From Microlunatus panaciterrae (GTDB lineage: Bacteria; Actinomycetota; Actinomycetes; Propionibacteriales; Propionibacteriaceae), in contig NZ_JAFBCF010000001.1 in assembly GCF_016907535.1 (NCBI RefSeq), positions 1-64,000 of the forward strand: a DNA stretch of 64,000 nt, in the 5' to 3' direction. Under the pieces are notes generated by a model, which worked only from the letters and a program-made list of their open reading frames with translations, ran no database searches and was not told the DNA's origin. The position numbers and the translations under genes are program-made. How positions within the stretch are numbered: the first letter of the stretch is position 1; the number at the start of each line of letters is the position of its first letter. Positions 16,206 through 39,722 of the stretch are shown here, one piece after another.

Positions 16206-16861
16206 GCGTGCCGTCCCCCAACGACCAGCCGCGTCCTGAGACCGCCACAGTGCCTCCCGAGCCTGTCGCTCCGCGCCCTGAGCCTGTCGCTCCGCGCCCT
16301 GAGCCTGTCGAAGGGCCCATCGGTGGTGAGGACCCGAGAGCGCTGGCTGGGGTGCCGGACTCGTTCGAGCGGCTGTGGACCCCCCACCGGATGGTCTACA
16401 TCCAGGGCGAGAACAAGCCGGCGGGCGATGACGAGCAGACCTGCCCGTTCTGCCGGATCGCCGCACTGCCCGACCGGGAGGGCCTGATCGTGCATCGAGG
16501 CCGCTACGCCTATGCGGTGCTGAACCTCTACCCGTACGCCCCGGGCCACCTGCTGATCTGCCCGTACCGGCACGTGGCCGACTACACGGAGCTGACCGCG
16601 GACGAGACGACCGAGGTGGCCGACCTGACCCAGCAGGCGATGGTGGTGCTCCGGCGTGCCAGCGGACCGCACGGCTTCAACCTGGGTATGAACCAGGGCG
16701 CCGTCGCCGGAGCGGGGATCGCCGCCCACCTGCATCAGCACGTGGTGCCGCGCTGGGCGGGGGACATGAACTTCCTGCCGGTGATCGGTCAGACCAAGGC
16801 GCTCCCGCAGCTGCTCGATCAGACCTGGCAGCTGGTCCACGACGCCTGGCGGGAGTCCTGA
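16202..16861 (+). CDS. HIT-family protein (Ap4A phosphorylase-like)
   Basis: 219 residues. The histidine-triad signature HLHQHVV is at about 180-186, with a CPFC zinc pair at about 81-84 and the family motif [18 protein letters not shown]. The order next to thrS and pgsA corresponds to Rv2613c, described as an Ap4A phosphorylase, so nucleotide-phosphate cleavage is a reasonable inference. GTG 16202 overlaps the thrS stop. Residues 18-38 are an unusual [19 protein letters not shown] repeat: the DNA here is the dispersed CCTGAGCCTGTCGAAGG element read in frame. The domain itself starts after it, so the insert is probably a flexible tail. Confidence 0.9.
16257..16317 (+). repeat. Dispersed CCTGAGCCTGTCG element inside the HIT gene
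   Basis: Three tandem copies of a GCCTGAGCCTGTCG-like sequence, spaced 21 nt, the last extending to CTGTCGAAGGGCCC. The spacing is a multiple of three, so the copies translate as the PEPVAPR repeat at the N-terminus of the HIT protein. The same motif forms intergenic clusters at 25.6, 31.0, 39.3-39.7 and 46.3 kb. Confidence 0.8.
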
Positions 16862-20187: not shown

Positions 20188-20813
20188 CTGCAGCCTCACC
20201 AGGCCCCAGCTATGACACCGATCGGGTCTGGACGCTGCCGAACGTGCTGAGCATGCTCAGGCTCGCCGGCGTACCGCTGCTGCTCTGGCTGGTCCTCGGG
20301 CCGCATGCTGATGTGATCGCGGTCCTGGTGCTGATCGTGGCCGGCTTCACCGACTGGCTCGACGGTTTCCTCGCCCGGCGGTGGAACCAGCGGTCACGGC
20401 TCGGCCAGATGCTGGACCCCGTCGCCGACCGCTTCTACATCCTCGCCACCCTGATCGGGCTGGCCGTACGCGAGATCATCCCATGGTGGCTGGTGATCAT
20501 CCTGGTGGCGCGCGATGTCGTGATCGCCCTGCTGGTGCCGATCCTGGAGACTCGCGGCTACTCGTCCCTGCCGGTGCACTTCCTCGGCAAGGCCGCCACC
20601 TTCAACCTGCTGTACGCGTTCCCGCTGGTGCTGCTCGGCGCCGGCGACTCGACCTTCGCCATGGCCGCTCGGGTGCTCGGCTGGGCGTTCGCCATCTGGG
20701 GGACTGGGCTCTACTGGTGGGCCGGCTGCCTCTACATCCGCCAGACGTACACCCTCGTCCGCACCCTGCCCCGGGTGGAGAGGCATCCCCAGCACCGCCT
20801 CGAGGCGCGATGA
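20166..20813 (+). CDS. CDP-alcohol phosphatidyltransferase (PgsA2-type)
   Basis: 215 residues from a leaderless GTG. The phosphotransferase motif is DWLDGFLARRWNQRSRLGQ then MLDPVADR (metal-binding Asp at about 60, 63, 81 and 85). About six membrane helices. In Mycobacterium the equivalent gene (Rv1822, pgsA2) is followed by DUF881, small basic protein, DUF881 and gcvH, exactly as here. The reaction is probably phosphatidylglycerol-phosphate or cardiolipin-type synthesis from CDP-diacylglycerol, but the acceptor alcohol is unproven. It shares ATGA with the next gene. Confidence 0.88.
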   Translation: MEPTGEMTAASPGPSYDTDRVWTLPNVLSMLRLAGVPLLLWLVLGPHADVIAVLVLIVAGFTDWLDGFLARRWNQRSRLGQMLDPVADRFYILATLIGLAVREIIPWWLVIILVARDVVIALLVPILETRGYSSLPVHFLGKAATFNLLYAFPLVLLGAGDSTFAMAARVLGWAFAIWGTGLYWWAGCLYIRQTYTLVRTLPRVERHPQHRLEAR

Positions 20814-21667
20814 GCTCGTCGAAGACGAAGTCGCCGGTGCGGGCGGACCAGTCCGCGACGCCTCAGCAGCAGGGCCGGCGGCCGGACGCCAGCATGGACC
20901 TGCTGAACCAGATCATGCGTCAGCCGCTGGACCCCGACTACGCCCGGGTGGCGGCCCAAGGGGCTCCACCGCCCCGGCTGCGCTGGCCACTGGCGATCAT
21001 CGCTGTGGTGATCGGCGCCATGTTCGCGGTCTCGGCCCTGCAGACCACGCGATCCGCCCCCGTGATCGCCGGCGAGCGGCAGGAGCTGATCAGCAGAATC
21101 CGCAACGCGGAGACCGAACAGGACACGCTCCGAGCCAAGGTCACCGCGCTGTCCAATGACATCACCCGGCTGCGGGGCTCGGCTCTGGGCAACGACAGCG
21201 CCTCTCGTGAGCTGGAGGGCCGGATCAACGTGCTCGAGCCGAGCGTGGGCAGCGTTGCGGTGACCGGGCCAGGTCTGGCGATCGTCGTCGACGACGGCCC
21301 GGACCAGGGCAACGACCGGGCCAGGGTCGCTGACACCGACCTGCAGATCCTCGTCAACGGGCTGTGGATCGCCGGTGCGGAGGCGGTGGCCATCAACGGT
21401 CACAGAATCTCCAACCTCACCGCCATCCGTGGTGCCGGCGACGCGATCACCGTGGACTACCGGTCACTGACCCGGCCCTATCGGATCGAGGCGATCGGGG
21501 ATCCGAAGACGCTTCAGGCCGACTATGTAGAGTCTTCCGGAGGCGCATGGTGGAACCTGTTGGAGCAGAACTATCAGATGAGGCATGAGATCACCGACGT
21601 GAAAGAGCTCACCCTCCCGGCGGACCCGGGCATGGTGCTGCGCTATGCGCGGAAGGCCGGCTCGTGA
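20810..21667 (+). CDS. DUF881 family membrane protein (first copy)
   Basis: 285 residues. A basic cytoplasmic N-terminus (1-55), one transmembrane helix (about 60-80), a coiled coil (about 88-125) and a DUF881 domain with SVAVTGPGLAIVVDDGP, LQILVNGLWIAGAEAVAINGHRI and IEAIGDPKTLQADY. The family is widespread in actinobacteria and Firmicutes, paired with the small basic protein and often near division or wall genes, but biochemistry is unknown. The order corresponds to Rv1823. Coupled to both neighbours by ATGA overlaps. Confidence 0.9.
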   Translation: MSSSKTKSPVRADQSATPQQQGRRPDASMDLLNQIMRQPLDPDYARVAAQGAPPPRLRWPLAIIAVVIGAMFAVSALQTTRSAPVIAGERQELISRIRNAETEQDTLRAKVTALSNDITRLRGSALGNDSASRELEGRINVLEPSVGSVAVTGPGLAIVVDDGPDQGNDRARVADTDLQILVNGLWIAGAEAVAINGHRISNLTAIRGAGDAITVDYRSLTRPYRIEAIGDPKTLQADYVESSGGAWWNLLEQNYQMRHEITDVKELTLPADPGMVLRYARKAGS

Positions 21668-21996
21668 TTCCGCTGCTCGGGCTGATCGTCGGCATCGTGT
21701 TGGGATTGCTGCTGGAACCGACGATCCCGCAGGGGCTCCAGCCCTATCTGCCGATTGCGATCGTGGCCGCCATGGACGCCCTCTTCGGGGCTTTCCGGGC
21801 GTACCTGGAGGGCAACTTCACCGACAAGGTGTTCGTCGTGTCGTTCATCTCCAACGTGCTGATCGCCGCAGCGATCGTCTACGTCGGCGACCAGATCGGC
21901 GTCGGCTCGCAGCTGTCGACCGGCGTGGTCGTGGTGCTGGGCATCCGCATCTTCACCAACGCAGCCGCTATCCGTCGGGCCCTCTTCCATGCCTGA
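21664..21996 (+). CDS. sbp: Small basic protein (DUF1290)
   Basis: 110 residues, three or four membrane helices. LGLIVGIVLGLLLEPTIP begins at residue 3 and the family core IAIVAAMDALFGAFRAYLEGNF is intact, ending in GIRIFTNAAAIRR. It corresponds to Rv1824 and always travels with DUF881 proteins. It starts at GTG 21664 inside the previous stop region. Its last codons CAT GCC TGA contain ATGCCTGA, the same octamer that starts the next DUF881 gene beyond the repeat array, showing that the two genes overlapped before the array arose. Confidence 0.9.
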   Translation: MIPLLGLIVGIVLGLLLEPTIPQGLQPYLPIAIVAAMDALFGAFRAYLEGNFTDKVFVVSFISNVLIAAAIVYVGDQIGVGSQLSTGVVVVLGIRIFTNAAAIRRALFHA

Positions 21997-22186
21997 GCTG
22001 AGAGGCGCTCCGCGCCATGCTGACCTGTCAGGCGCTCCGCGCCATGCTGACCTGAGAGGCGCTCCGCGCCATGCTGACCTGAGAGGCGCTCCGCGCCATG
22101 CTGACCTGAGAGGCGCTCCGCGCCATGCTGACCTGAGAGGCGCTCCGCGCCATGCTGACCTGAGAGGCGCTCCGCGCCATGCCTGA
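21989..22186 (+). repeat. Seven-unit 27-bp tandem hairpin array between sbp and DUF881
   Basis: The core GGCGCTCCGCGCC begins at 22004, 22031, 22058, 22085, 22112, 22139 and 22166, exactly 27 nt apart. Each core is a GGCGC/GCGCC hairpin with a three-base loop. Only the unit 1-2 junction differs (CTGTCA instead of CTGAGA). The array is bounded by the octamer ATGCCTGA at 21989-21996 and 22179-22186: the first overlaps the sbp stop, the second is the start of the next gene. One plus-strand frame stays open across it (RGAPRHADL repeated) but it is probably not a real protein. Confidence 0.9.
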
Positions 22187-23249
22187 TCCCCAGGGCGTTC
22201 CCCGACCGCGCCACGCCGCCTCACCACCACCGGTGCGCGGCTCAGCGCGCCGGCGCTTCCAGCGCCAGCAGCGGATCCGGCAGGCCCAGACCCAGCAGAG
22301 TCCCTCGGAACAGTCTGCCCAGACCGCACAACGGACCGACGAGACCAGTGCGGTCGAGCCCACCGCCGTACGGCCGGTGCAACCAGGCCACTCGCGTGAG
22401 CCGGTGCGGGCGATCGAGACGGACGACGAGACCCAGCCGGAGGTCGTCGACACCGAGGTGGGCGCGGCTGCCGTCGAGGATGACGAGTCGGCCGGCCACC
22501 CTGCGCCGTCATCGGATCGTCGGTCTCGGGTCTGGCGGTCGCTGGTCCACCCCGGCCGCGGCCAGGTGATCGCTGCGGTGATGCTGTTCGTCGTCGGTAT
22601 GGCCGGTGTGATGCAGATCCGCGTCAACCACGCCGACGACACCTACGCCAACGCCCGCCGAGAGGACCTGATCCAGCTGCTGGACGGCCTCGGTCAGGAG
22701 TCTCGGCGGCTGGAGTCGGAGATCGCCGATCTGGAGAAGACCAGAACCAACCTCGTCTCCGGCGCCGACACCGAACGGGTGGCGCGACAGGAGGCCCAGC
22801 GGCGGATCGAGGTGCTGTCCATCCTTGCCGGCACGATGCCGGCCGAGGGACCGGGGATCAAGATGACGATCACCGATCCCCAGGGCAAGGTCACCGCCGA
22901 CAACCTGCTCGATGCGGTCGAGGAGATGCGGGATGCCGGTGCCGAGGTGATCGAGTTCAACAACTCGGTACGGGTGGTCGCCTCCACCTGGTTCGGCTCC
23001 GACTCGAAAGGGTTGATCGTCGACGGTCAGCACCTCAGCGGACCGATCGTGATGGAGGTGATCGGGGACCCGCACGGGCTGGAGGAGGGGGCCCGGTTCC
23101 GAGGCGGCATCGTGAGCGAGATCACGGGCCCCAAGATCGGCGGCGAGGTGGAGATCAGCCAGGCCAAGAAGATCACCATCCAGTCCTTGCACACCCCTTC
23201 GAAGAATCAGTACGCTCAGCCCGCATCGCCACCACCGACGCCTCGGTGA
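22179..23249 (+). CDS. DUF881 family membrane protein (second copy)
   Basis: 356 residues, corresponding to Rv1825. A long, polar, probably disordered cytoplasmic N-terminus (1-125) is followed by one transmembrane helix (VIAAVMLFVVGMAGVMQIRV, about 129-147), a coiled coil (about 165-200) and a DUF881 domain (AEGPGIKMTITDPQGKV, AEVIEFNNSVRVVASTWF, VMEVIGDPHGLEEGARF). ATG 22179 lies at the end of the tandem hairpin array, so its translation initiation region is unusual: no ribosome site is seen other than array sequence. Function unknown; probably envelope-associated with the first DUF881 protein and Sbp. Confidence 0.88.
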   Translation: MPDPQGVPRPRHAASPPPVRGSARRRFQRQQRIRQAQTQQSPSEQSAQTAQRTDETSAVEPTAVRPVQPGHSREPVRAIETDDETQPEVVDTEVGAAAVEDDESAGHPAPSSDRRSRVWRSLVHPGRGQVIAAVMLFVVGMAGVMQIRVNHADDTYANARREDLIQLLDGLGQESRRLESEIADLEKTRTNLVSGADTERVARQEAQRRIEVLSILAGTMPAEGPGIKMTITDPQGKVTADNLLDAVEEMRDAGAEVIEFNNSVRVVASTWFGSDSKGLIVDGQHLSGPIVMEVIGDPHGLEEGARFRGGIVSEITGPKIGGEVEISQAKKITIQSLHTPSKNQYAQPASPPPTPR

Positions 23250-30983: not shown

Positions 30984-31099
30984 CGCCCTTCGACAGGCTC
31001 AGGGCGCGGAGTGGGAGGGCTCAGGGCGCGGAATGGCCCTTCGACAGGCTCAGGGCGCGGAGTGAGAGGGCTCAGGGCGCGGAGTAGGAGGGCTCAGGA
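30984..31099. repeat. Dispersed CCCTTCGACAGGCTCAGGG cluster
   Basis: Two full CCCTTCGACAGGCTCAGGGCG elements (near 30987 and 31033) interleaved with three shorter GGGCTCAGGGCGCGGAGT half-copies. It lies between the permease and BrkB genes; the half-copies look like partial tandem expansions. Confidence 0.85.
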
Positions 31100-39267: not shown

Positions 39268-39600
39268 CACGTGTCCTGAGCCTGTCGAAGGAACGTGTCC
39301 TGGGCCTCTCGAAGGACCAGAACGGAGGCCCTTCGACAAGCTCAGGGCACGGAAACAAGCTCAGGACGCGCGCACCACGTGTCCTGAGCTTGTCGAAGGA
39401 CGAGAACGGGTGCCCTTCGACAAGCTCAGGGCACGGAAACAAGCTCAGGACGCGCGCACCACGTGTCCTGAGCTTGTCGAAGGACGAGAACGGGTGCCCT
39501 TCGACAAGCTCAGGGCACGGAAACAAGCTCAGGACGCGCGCACCACGTGTCCTGAGCTTGTCGAAGGACGAGAACGGGTGCCCTTCGACAAGCTCAGGGC
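39268..39600. repeat. 84-bp tandem repeat of dispersed palindromic elements
   Basis: Four units in 84-bp register: the segment GCCCTTCGACAAGCTCAGGG recurs at 39328, 39412, 39496 and 39580. Each unit holds one CCTGAGCTTGTCGAAGG and one inverted CCTTCGACAAGCTCAGG, so every unit can form a strong hairpin. The last three units are essentially identical. The cluster lies upstream of the aldo/keto reductase start and downstream of the MFS stop. Confidence 0.9.
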
Positions 39601-39722
39601 ACGGAAACAAGCTCAGGGCACGGAAACAAGCTCAGGGCACGGAAACAAGCTCAGGGCACGGAAACAAGCTCAGGGCACGGAAACAAGCTCAGGGCACGGA
39701 AACAAGCTCAGGGCACGAAAGG
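39590..39722. repeat. 19-bp tandem repeat, seven units
   Basis: AAGCTCAGGGCACGGAAAC recurs every 19 nt at 39590, 39609, 39628, 39647, 39666, 39685 and 39704, identical apart from the last bases. It derives from the end of the 84-bp unit and stops 2 nt before the MFS gene stop codon. Confidence 0.92.

Follow-up and report, generated by a model that had tools for sequence, protein, structure and literature searches.

Introduction

The common view is that two genes whose stop and start codons overlap are rigidly tied, and the described system closest to the locus studied here is termination-reinitiation coupling at −8 overlaps (ATGNNTGA), whose start/stop layout is found at each edge of the tandem array reported below. 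In the excerpted text of PMC10666635, reinitiation is very strongly distance-dependent, with a spacing of about 20 nt almost abolishing coupling, and the −8 overlap is given as the third most common across prokaryotes and as less efficient than shorter overlaps. The available sections of a review (PMC12548453) cover both reinitiation and RNA-unfolding models; they cite one study in which spacings up to +25 nt caused no loss of coupling and coupling became weaker at overlaps beyond −4, and a second in which structure immediately past the upstream stop lowered coupling. The accessible part of PMC6728339 argues that de novo initiation can be prevented by local structure at a start, which leaves that start to coupled ribosomes alone.

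The window analyzed here is a stretch of 64,000 nucleotides at the start of the single-contig genome of Microlunatus panaciterrae (4,068,014 bp; assembly 99.78% complete, the one assembly of the species analyzed). A search of the literature on repeats and duplication at coupled genes found no tandem array bridging an overlap among titles and abstract starts, which is not proof of absence; the DUF881 literature, covered in the same way, held nothing on this junction, and a search for DUF1290 literature found none. Judging from sequence, we hold with slightly better than even confidence that the array arose by recent tandem expansion at an ancient −8 overlap (ATGCCTGA) and acts as a translation relay from sbp through a short frame (orf65) to DUF881.

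Results

Architecture of the array between sbp and DUF881

Pfam and open reading frame analyses gave the gene order CDP-alcohol phosphatidyltransferase, DUF881, sbp (DUF1290), DUF881, gcvH and FHA-domain protein; we take Rv1823 and Rv1825 to be the names of the mycobacterial counterparts. The first two joints of the operon are 4-nt overlaps (20813/20810 and 21667/21664). The sbp product ends in ...RALFHA*, much like its relatives, and the start of the second DUF881 gene is the counterpart of the sbp-overlapping start in relatives. The features of the junction are listed in Table 1.

Table 1 Features of the sbp/DUF881 junction in the window
Feature	Coordinates	Strand	Remarks
First DUF881 gene	20810..21667	+	PF05949, E 1.5e-36; 4-nt overlap (GTGA) with sbp
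sbp (small basic protein, DUF1290), 110 aa	21664..21996	+	PF06947, E 4e-34
Left octamer ATGCCTGA	21989..21996	+	sbp stop codon and orf65 start codon; −8 overlap
orf65, 65 codons, MPELRGAPRHA(DL..RGAPRHA)n	21989..22186	+	Proposed translation relay, left octamer to right octamer
182 bp between octamers: seven 27-bp units, the first in a 28-bp setting	21997..22178	+	
Seven GGCGC-TCC-GCGCC inverted repeats, 13 bp each	22004..22178	+	Starts at 22004, 22031, 22058, 22085, 22112, 22139, 22166
Six inner ATG codons, DUF881 frame	22017..22154	+	22017, 22044, 22071, 22098, 22125, 22152
SD-like GAGAGG	22162..22167	+	11 nt before DUF881 ATG; last two G inside last hairpin
Right octamer ATGCCTGA	22179..22186	+	orf65 stop codon and DUF881 start codon; −8 overlap
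Second DUF881 gene, 356 aa	22179..23249	+	PF05949, E 1.8e-29

Tandem Repeats Finder described the array as head-to-tail, near-identical units with a period of 27 bp, 7.2 copies and 96% matches (21987-22182). The 13-bp core GGCGCTCCGCGCC occurs seven times in it at a spacing of exactly 27 bp, against a mean of 1.05 matches in shuffles of the window even with one mismatch allowed; across the 4,068,014-bp genome it was found eight times on the forward and never on the reverse strand, that is, once beyond the array, and the reversed-pattern control was found once. A search of the whole genome returned no second match to the array at E <= 0.001. Units 3-7 are identical, unit 2 carries two base differences (TGTCAGG), and unit 1 begins differently (CCTGAGCTGAG). 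The initial annotation had placed the octamer ATGCCTGA at both edges of a seven-unit array, as the end of sbp on the left and the start of DUF881 on the right. Our coordinates agree, with 21989-22186 running from the first base of the left copy to the last base of the right one; the octamer is confined to these two edges, and the inner units read ATGCTGAC.

In the DUF881 frame, five inner units carry an ATG-CTG-ACC-TGA mini-frame (22044-22163), and 15 nt separate each stop from the ATG that follows. Three-frame translation showed that the last five inner ATGs open only MLT* in this frame, and such mini-frames are possible decoy starts.

The −8 overlap is ancestral

To describe the history of the junction, 198 genomes of the family were searched; 130 had an sbp match, and 124 were used, the window included. 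The six left out were G112 (contig end), G022, G023, G074 and G075 (match one residue short) and G124 (stop inside the match). Throughout the surveys, position and length decided whether a downstream gene was called DUF881, the requirement being a frame of at least 120 codons (at least 70 in a survey of 98 junctions described below) or one open to the end of the stretch, with a Pfam check for the window and five relay loci. A long frame lies directly at −8 on the sbp stop in 119/124 family genomes, so the overlap layout of a coupled pair is conserved across relatives. The remaining five comprise one −4 overlap, two relays (the window and G005) and two genomes (G012 and G031) whose downstream frames are apparently broken. 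In these last two (loci L012 and L261) the DUF881 frame seems to be broken by an indel soon after its start; G012 had been classed as 'none' and G031 as 'relay -8>-4', and on this reading neither was counted as a relay.

The overlap octamer is ATGCCTGA in 107/124 and GTGCCTGA in 6/124 family genomes, a conservation that may partly reflect the conserved sbp end. In a first survey, which shares loci with the family survey, 88/90 loci could be classified (all except L022 and L091), and in 76 of the 88 the next long frame starts five bases before the sbp stop, giving the same 8-nt overlap. The nearest relative by sbp, G016 (94% protein identity), has the plain overlap. None of the 197 other family genomes matched the array at E <= 0.001, at most four candidates being scored per genome among the matches shown. 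The order of events, overlap first and array later, is thus well supported. This bears out the earlier proposal that the genes once overlapped by eight bases and that the array grew there while duplicating the octamer, and neither an old octamer-free spacer nor an equal copy number in distant species was seen.

The overlap was doubled and encloses an open frame

Within the octamer, a start codon (ATG) is followed two frames on by a stop codon (TGA). When it is copied at a distance d, the left frame runs into DUF881 if d is 0 mod 3, stops on the right TGA if d is 1 mod 3, and misses both if d is 2 mod 3. The octamer-to-octamer distance in the window is 190 bp (7 x 27 + 1). Since this distance from left ATG to right ATG is 1 mod 3, the left frame, orf65, terminates at the right TGA and overlaps the DUF881 start by 8 nt. 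The stop/start overlap of a coupled pair therefore occurs twice, at 21989-21996 and at 22179-22186, and sbp, orf65 and DUF881 form a chain with a −8 overlap at each joint, though sbp and DUF881 lie 182 nt apart. The initial annotation had described the overlap as separated by the array; what it missed is that the overlap was doubled, not lost. The orf65 frame is the only one of the three that is open throughout the array, but an open frame alone is weak evidence, as any given frame also stays open in 83% of cases when the units are shuffled.

A functional orf65 peptide was also considered. Pfam gave only weak, short matches (Pentapeptide at its cut-off of 20.2, two others below theirs), and the codon use of orf65 is unlike that of a gene, with a GC3 of 0.57 against 0.80-0.91 in 13 neighbouring genes, in which AGA makes up 8/296 Arg codons. 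Given this codon use, at most the frame and not the peptide would be under selection; the candidate was rejected, and the peptide is probably without function.

Does the extra base in the 190-bp distance reflect a one-base sequencing error or a fresh indel? The true distance would then be 189, and the array would be an in-frame N-terminal extension of DUF881, as in M. speluncae, where an in-frame array (21-bp units, VPEDKGS repeats) occupies the same junction. The first unit of the window is 28 bp, where the others are 27, which would fit. However, the extra base lies within the left octamer, at the conserved sbp end of relatives, so that deleting it would abolish the sbp stop, and the assembly is a single 4.07-Mb contig of the completeness given above. 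We regard an error or indel as highly improbable.

Relays and octamer copies in relatives

Among 98 junctions surveyed, nine lacked a direct overlap with a long downstream frame, and seven of these nine have a start at −8. In six of the seven, the short frame so opened closes over the downstream start in an exact −8 overlap. This frame has 65 codons in the window, 6 codons in G005 (MPETHA*), 7 codons each in L152 and L155, 16 codons in L038 and 18 codons in L153. The other three of the nine are L065 and L089, without a start on the sbp stop, and L012, the same as G012, whose downstream frame is broken. G005 is another Microlunatus, L038 is Mumia xiangluensis, and L152, L153 and L155 belong to the Mumia genus (g37, including G258, placed as M. 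quercus); the downstream gene is DUF881 by Pfam in all five relay relatives.

The right octamers of the Mumia loci differ (ATGAGTGA, ATGGCTGA, GTGGCTGA), and the end-to-end distances of 16, 16, 43 and 49 are all 1 mod 3 despite their differing lengths. Diverged ends and varying frame lengths are expected if the layout, not the letters, is kept. In L153 this junction contains an independent tandem array (16 bp x 3.3, locus positions 1821-1874) of the octamer ATGCATAG, which gives the 18-codon frame. The distance from the first octamer copy to one of the inner copies is 17 bp (2 mod 3), and the end-to-end distance is 49.

Copies of the octamer within 120 nt past the sbp stop were found in 6/90 loci, against 0.39 expected from the same loci; the copy in the window lies farther away and is not among the six. 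A pattern scan of the order hit 5/391 genomes, all five at the sbp/DUF881 joint, with none for the reversed-pattern control, and a scan of the class, which shares some genomes with it, hit 1/394, a Mumia genome already in the order scan. The end-to-end distances are 13 (G005), 16 (G010), 31 (M. quercus) and 190 (window), all 1 mod 3, and 12 (L073), 12 (G397), 15 (L097) and 21 (M. speluncae), all 0 mod 3 and thus in-frame extensions. The link-breaking class, 2 mod 3, is absent among these eight, for which the chance is (2/3)^8 = 0.04 when every case is treated as independent; relatedness may make this untrue of G005/G010 and of the Mumia species.

Across the relay loci the gap between sbp and DUF881 ranges from 5 to 182 nt. 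In G005, L152 and L155 only 5 or 8 nt separate the sbp stop from the DUF881 start, so a direct restart is possible and a relay would be unneeded there. G010 has a direct −4 start, and in M. quercus a TTG at −4 could serve as a direct start; together with the plain direct overlap of G369 (L151, Mumia genus), the M. quercus case indicates that a bridge is not universal in Mumia.

Repeat-built N-termini of the second DUF881 protein were seen elsewhere. In M. speluncae (L028 and L075) a 21-bp x 4.9 in-frame array supplies several candidate GTG starts and an N-terminus made of VPEDKGS repeats. Six further loci (L062, L070, L074, L077, L081 and L103), five from Nocardioides and one from an actinobacterial MAG, have a Lys/Ala-rich N-terminus with KRTAAKRTPAKK-type repeats, which we take to resemble histone-H1-type tails.

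Hairpins and initiation signals

Each unit forms a small perfect hairpin, as had been noted, with a 5-bp stem and a 3-nt loop (−7.1 kcal/mol bare, −8.6 kcal/mol with flanks). The initial annotation had further suggested that these hairpins may affect coupling, mRNA stability or translation of the second DUF881, and one explanation of the array is accordingly that its stems act on mRNA stability, on attenuation or on how accessible the DUF881 start is, with the number of units setting the level. There are seven perfect stems, and the last ends directly before the DUF881 ATG. Against a special structural role, the fold of the array RNA is no more stable than those of dinucleotide shuffles (z +0.96; 168/200 at least as stable), and in its minimum-energy form (−73.6 kcal/mol, compared with −58.9 kcal/mol for a fold into seven local hairpins) stems of different units pair with one another. 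No terminator (stem plus T run) or promoter match was found at 21500-22500, and no Rfam family scored above its gathering threshold, one sub-threshold match lying outside the array (22247-22269, minus strand, E 0.82). The hairpins as terminator, attenuator or known RNA were thus rejected or left unsupported by the shuffles and by these searches. Since the array is neither unusually stable nor matched by a terminator, promoter or Rfam family, the hairpins are better read as a property of the unit than as evidence of a structured regulator; the array is also unmatched in the 197 other family genomes, and we consider a regulatory hairpin array very unlikely.

The chief rival of the relay is independent initiation, because the last unit carries the SD-like GAGAGG. 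Here the array would have given DUF881 its own ribosome-binding site, the last unit admitting new 30S subunits independently of sbp, and orf65 would be incidental. Most units read GAGAGG, hairpin, ATG, with CTGTCAGG in unit 2. The GAGAGG before 22179 pairs with what we take to be the anti-SD core at −5.8 kcal/mol, within the range of the pgsA-like gene, DUF881a, sbp and garA (−5.5 to −5.9 kcal/mol), whereas the start at 21989, where the ancestral upstream sequence is kept, reaches only −2.5 kcal/mol. On the other side, the spacing of 11 nt to the ATG is long, the final two G of the motif are part of the 5-bp hairpin next to the ATG, similar motifs precede the six inner ATGs, whose frames close early, and the relays of Mumia and G005 exist without this array. 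Taken together, independent initiation is an unlikely account, although one that deserves real weight beside the relay.

Origin of the repeat unit

The genome contains 153 near-copies of CTCCGCGCCCTGAGCCTGTC (89 + 64, at most two mismatches; control 0), belonging to a dispersed repeat that we call REP-like, our own name. Thirty copies read with their flanks share the conserved part CGCGCCCTGAGCCTGTCGAAGGGC, and some stand in tandem. Tandem runs of this repeat, in the CGCGCCCTGAGCCTGTCGAAGGGC and CTTCGACAAGCTCAGG forms, were also seen in the window at 16259-16310, 30985-31098 and 39269-39717. CTTCGACAAGCTCAGG is the form at 39293-39617, and no paper with it was found in the open-access literature searched.

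Unit 2 aligns to the dispersed repeat as CTCCGCGCC(ATG)CTGA-CCTGTC--AGG. Depending on the reference form and the kind of shuffle, unit 2 has a p value of 0.0005-0.016, and unit 3, which represents the commoner form, one of 0.0005-0.08; these values are too favourable since the comparison was chosen after inspection. Of 4000 random 27-mers of the window, 4 score as high as unit 2, and the repeat itself may account for some of them. Within three mismatches, 24 bases of the unit lie at only the seven array places in the genome, not at many places, and a 24-base stretch of the array had no exact match in viral contigs. As another origin we considered the 5' end of DUF881, where MPELRGAPRHA resembles MPDPQGVPRPRHA; the DNA match past the octamer is weak (shuffle p 0.049), and 2610/63730 other window positions align equally well. 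The dispersed-repeat origin scores better than this, though chosen after inspection, and we give an even chance to the unit being a degenerate copy of the dispersed repeat that was caught at the octamer and then amplified, the alternative being slippage at the joint. In M. endophyticus (L016 and L030), the repeat-like CCTGAGCTTGTCGAAGG lies in frame within the first 25 DUF881 codons, so a dispersed-repeat form enters this region in another species too.

Either origin could also have produced a neutral minisatellite, that is, a dispersed-repeat copy or slippage expanded in a tolerant spot, with the geometry due to chance, coupling reduced or lost, and lower DUF881 harmless. The many genomic near-copies, some in tandem, and the similarity of unit 2 (less so of unit 3) would fit such an account, as would the gene-unlike codons of orf65, the 83% chance of an open frame, and the other tandem repeats found after the sbp stop in many relatives. 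It sits poorly with the exact −8 overlap kept at both edges, with the relay geometry that recurs in Mumia in diverged sequence, and with the direct overlap kept at 119/124 family junctions, which suggests that coupling matters. We judge neutrality less probable still than independent initiation.

Discussion

We propose that the expansion copied the overlap itself, so that sbp now ends on one ATGCCTGA and DUF881 begins on another. In the relay, a ribosome finishing sbp would restart at once on orf65, cross the seven units, melting the hairpins en route, end on the right octamer and then restart on DUF881 by termination-reinitiation. The last hairpin abuts the DUF881 ATG and would therefore impede new ribosomes there, and a ribosome translating orf65 would melt it. 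As spacings of about 20 nt nearly abolish coupling in the excerpted text of PMC10666635, a plain 182-nt spacer should uncouple the genes, and a ribosome carried on orf65 would be the simplest way for DUF881 to stay coupled. From the letters of the locus we predict that ribosomes translate orf65 and that the output of DUF881 depends on this.

A copied octamer would keep the genes linked in two of three cases, since 0 mod 3 lengthens the second protein and 1 mod 3 makes a bridging frame. With the joint itself copied, the geometry suggests that it survived a 182-bp insertion. If this is true, operons could take up repeats and small insertions without being uncoupled, some short 'intergenic' frames would be ribosome conduits rather than peptide genes, and the sbp/DUF881 junction, with its range of gaps, would offer a natural series for how far and by what route ribosomes pass on. 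More broadly, and tentatively, as an extension we think rather doubtful, ATGNNTGA overlaps may be duplication-tolerant joints at which arrays grow in operons as ribosome bridges that can vary in length by whole 27-bp units, possibly tuning the sbp:DUF881 ratio, the Propionibacteriales junction being a natural series from 6 to 65 codons.

Compared with known systems, the window differs from ordinary −8 coupling (ATGNNTGA) in having two overlaps in series with a repeat-built frame between them. The dispersed REP-like repeat (CTCCGCGCCCTGAGCCTGTCGAAGGGC) shares CTCCGCGCC and CTGA.CCTGTC with unit 2 and also forms tandem runs, and the unit differs from it by a three-base insertion and several deletions. 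M. speluncae (L028/L075) also has an array at this junction, with the overlap octamer GTGCCTGA inside its units, but these 21-bp units keep 0 mod 3, so that DUF881 is lengthened and no separate frame is made. In Mumia (L038, L152, L153 and L155), a short frame likewise has −8 overlaps on both sides, that of L153 being built by a 16-bp array, and these relays differ from the one proposed here in length (7-18 codons), in sequence and in gaps (8-41 nt).
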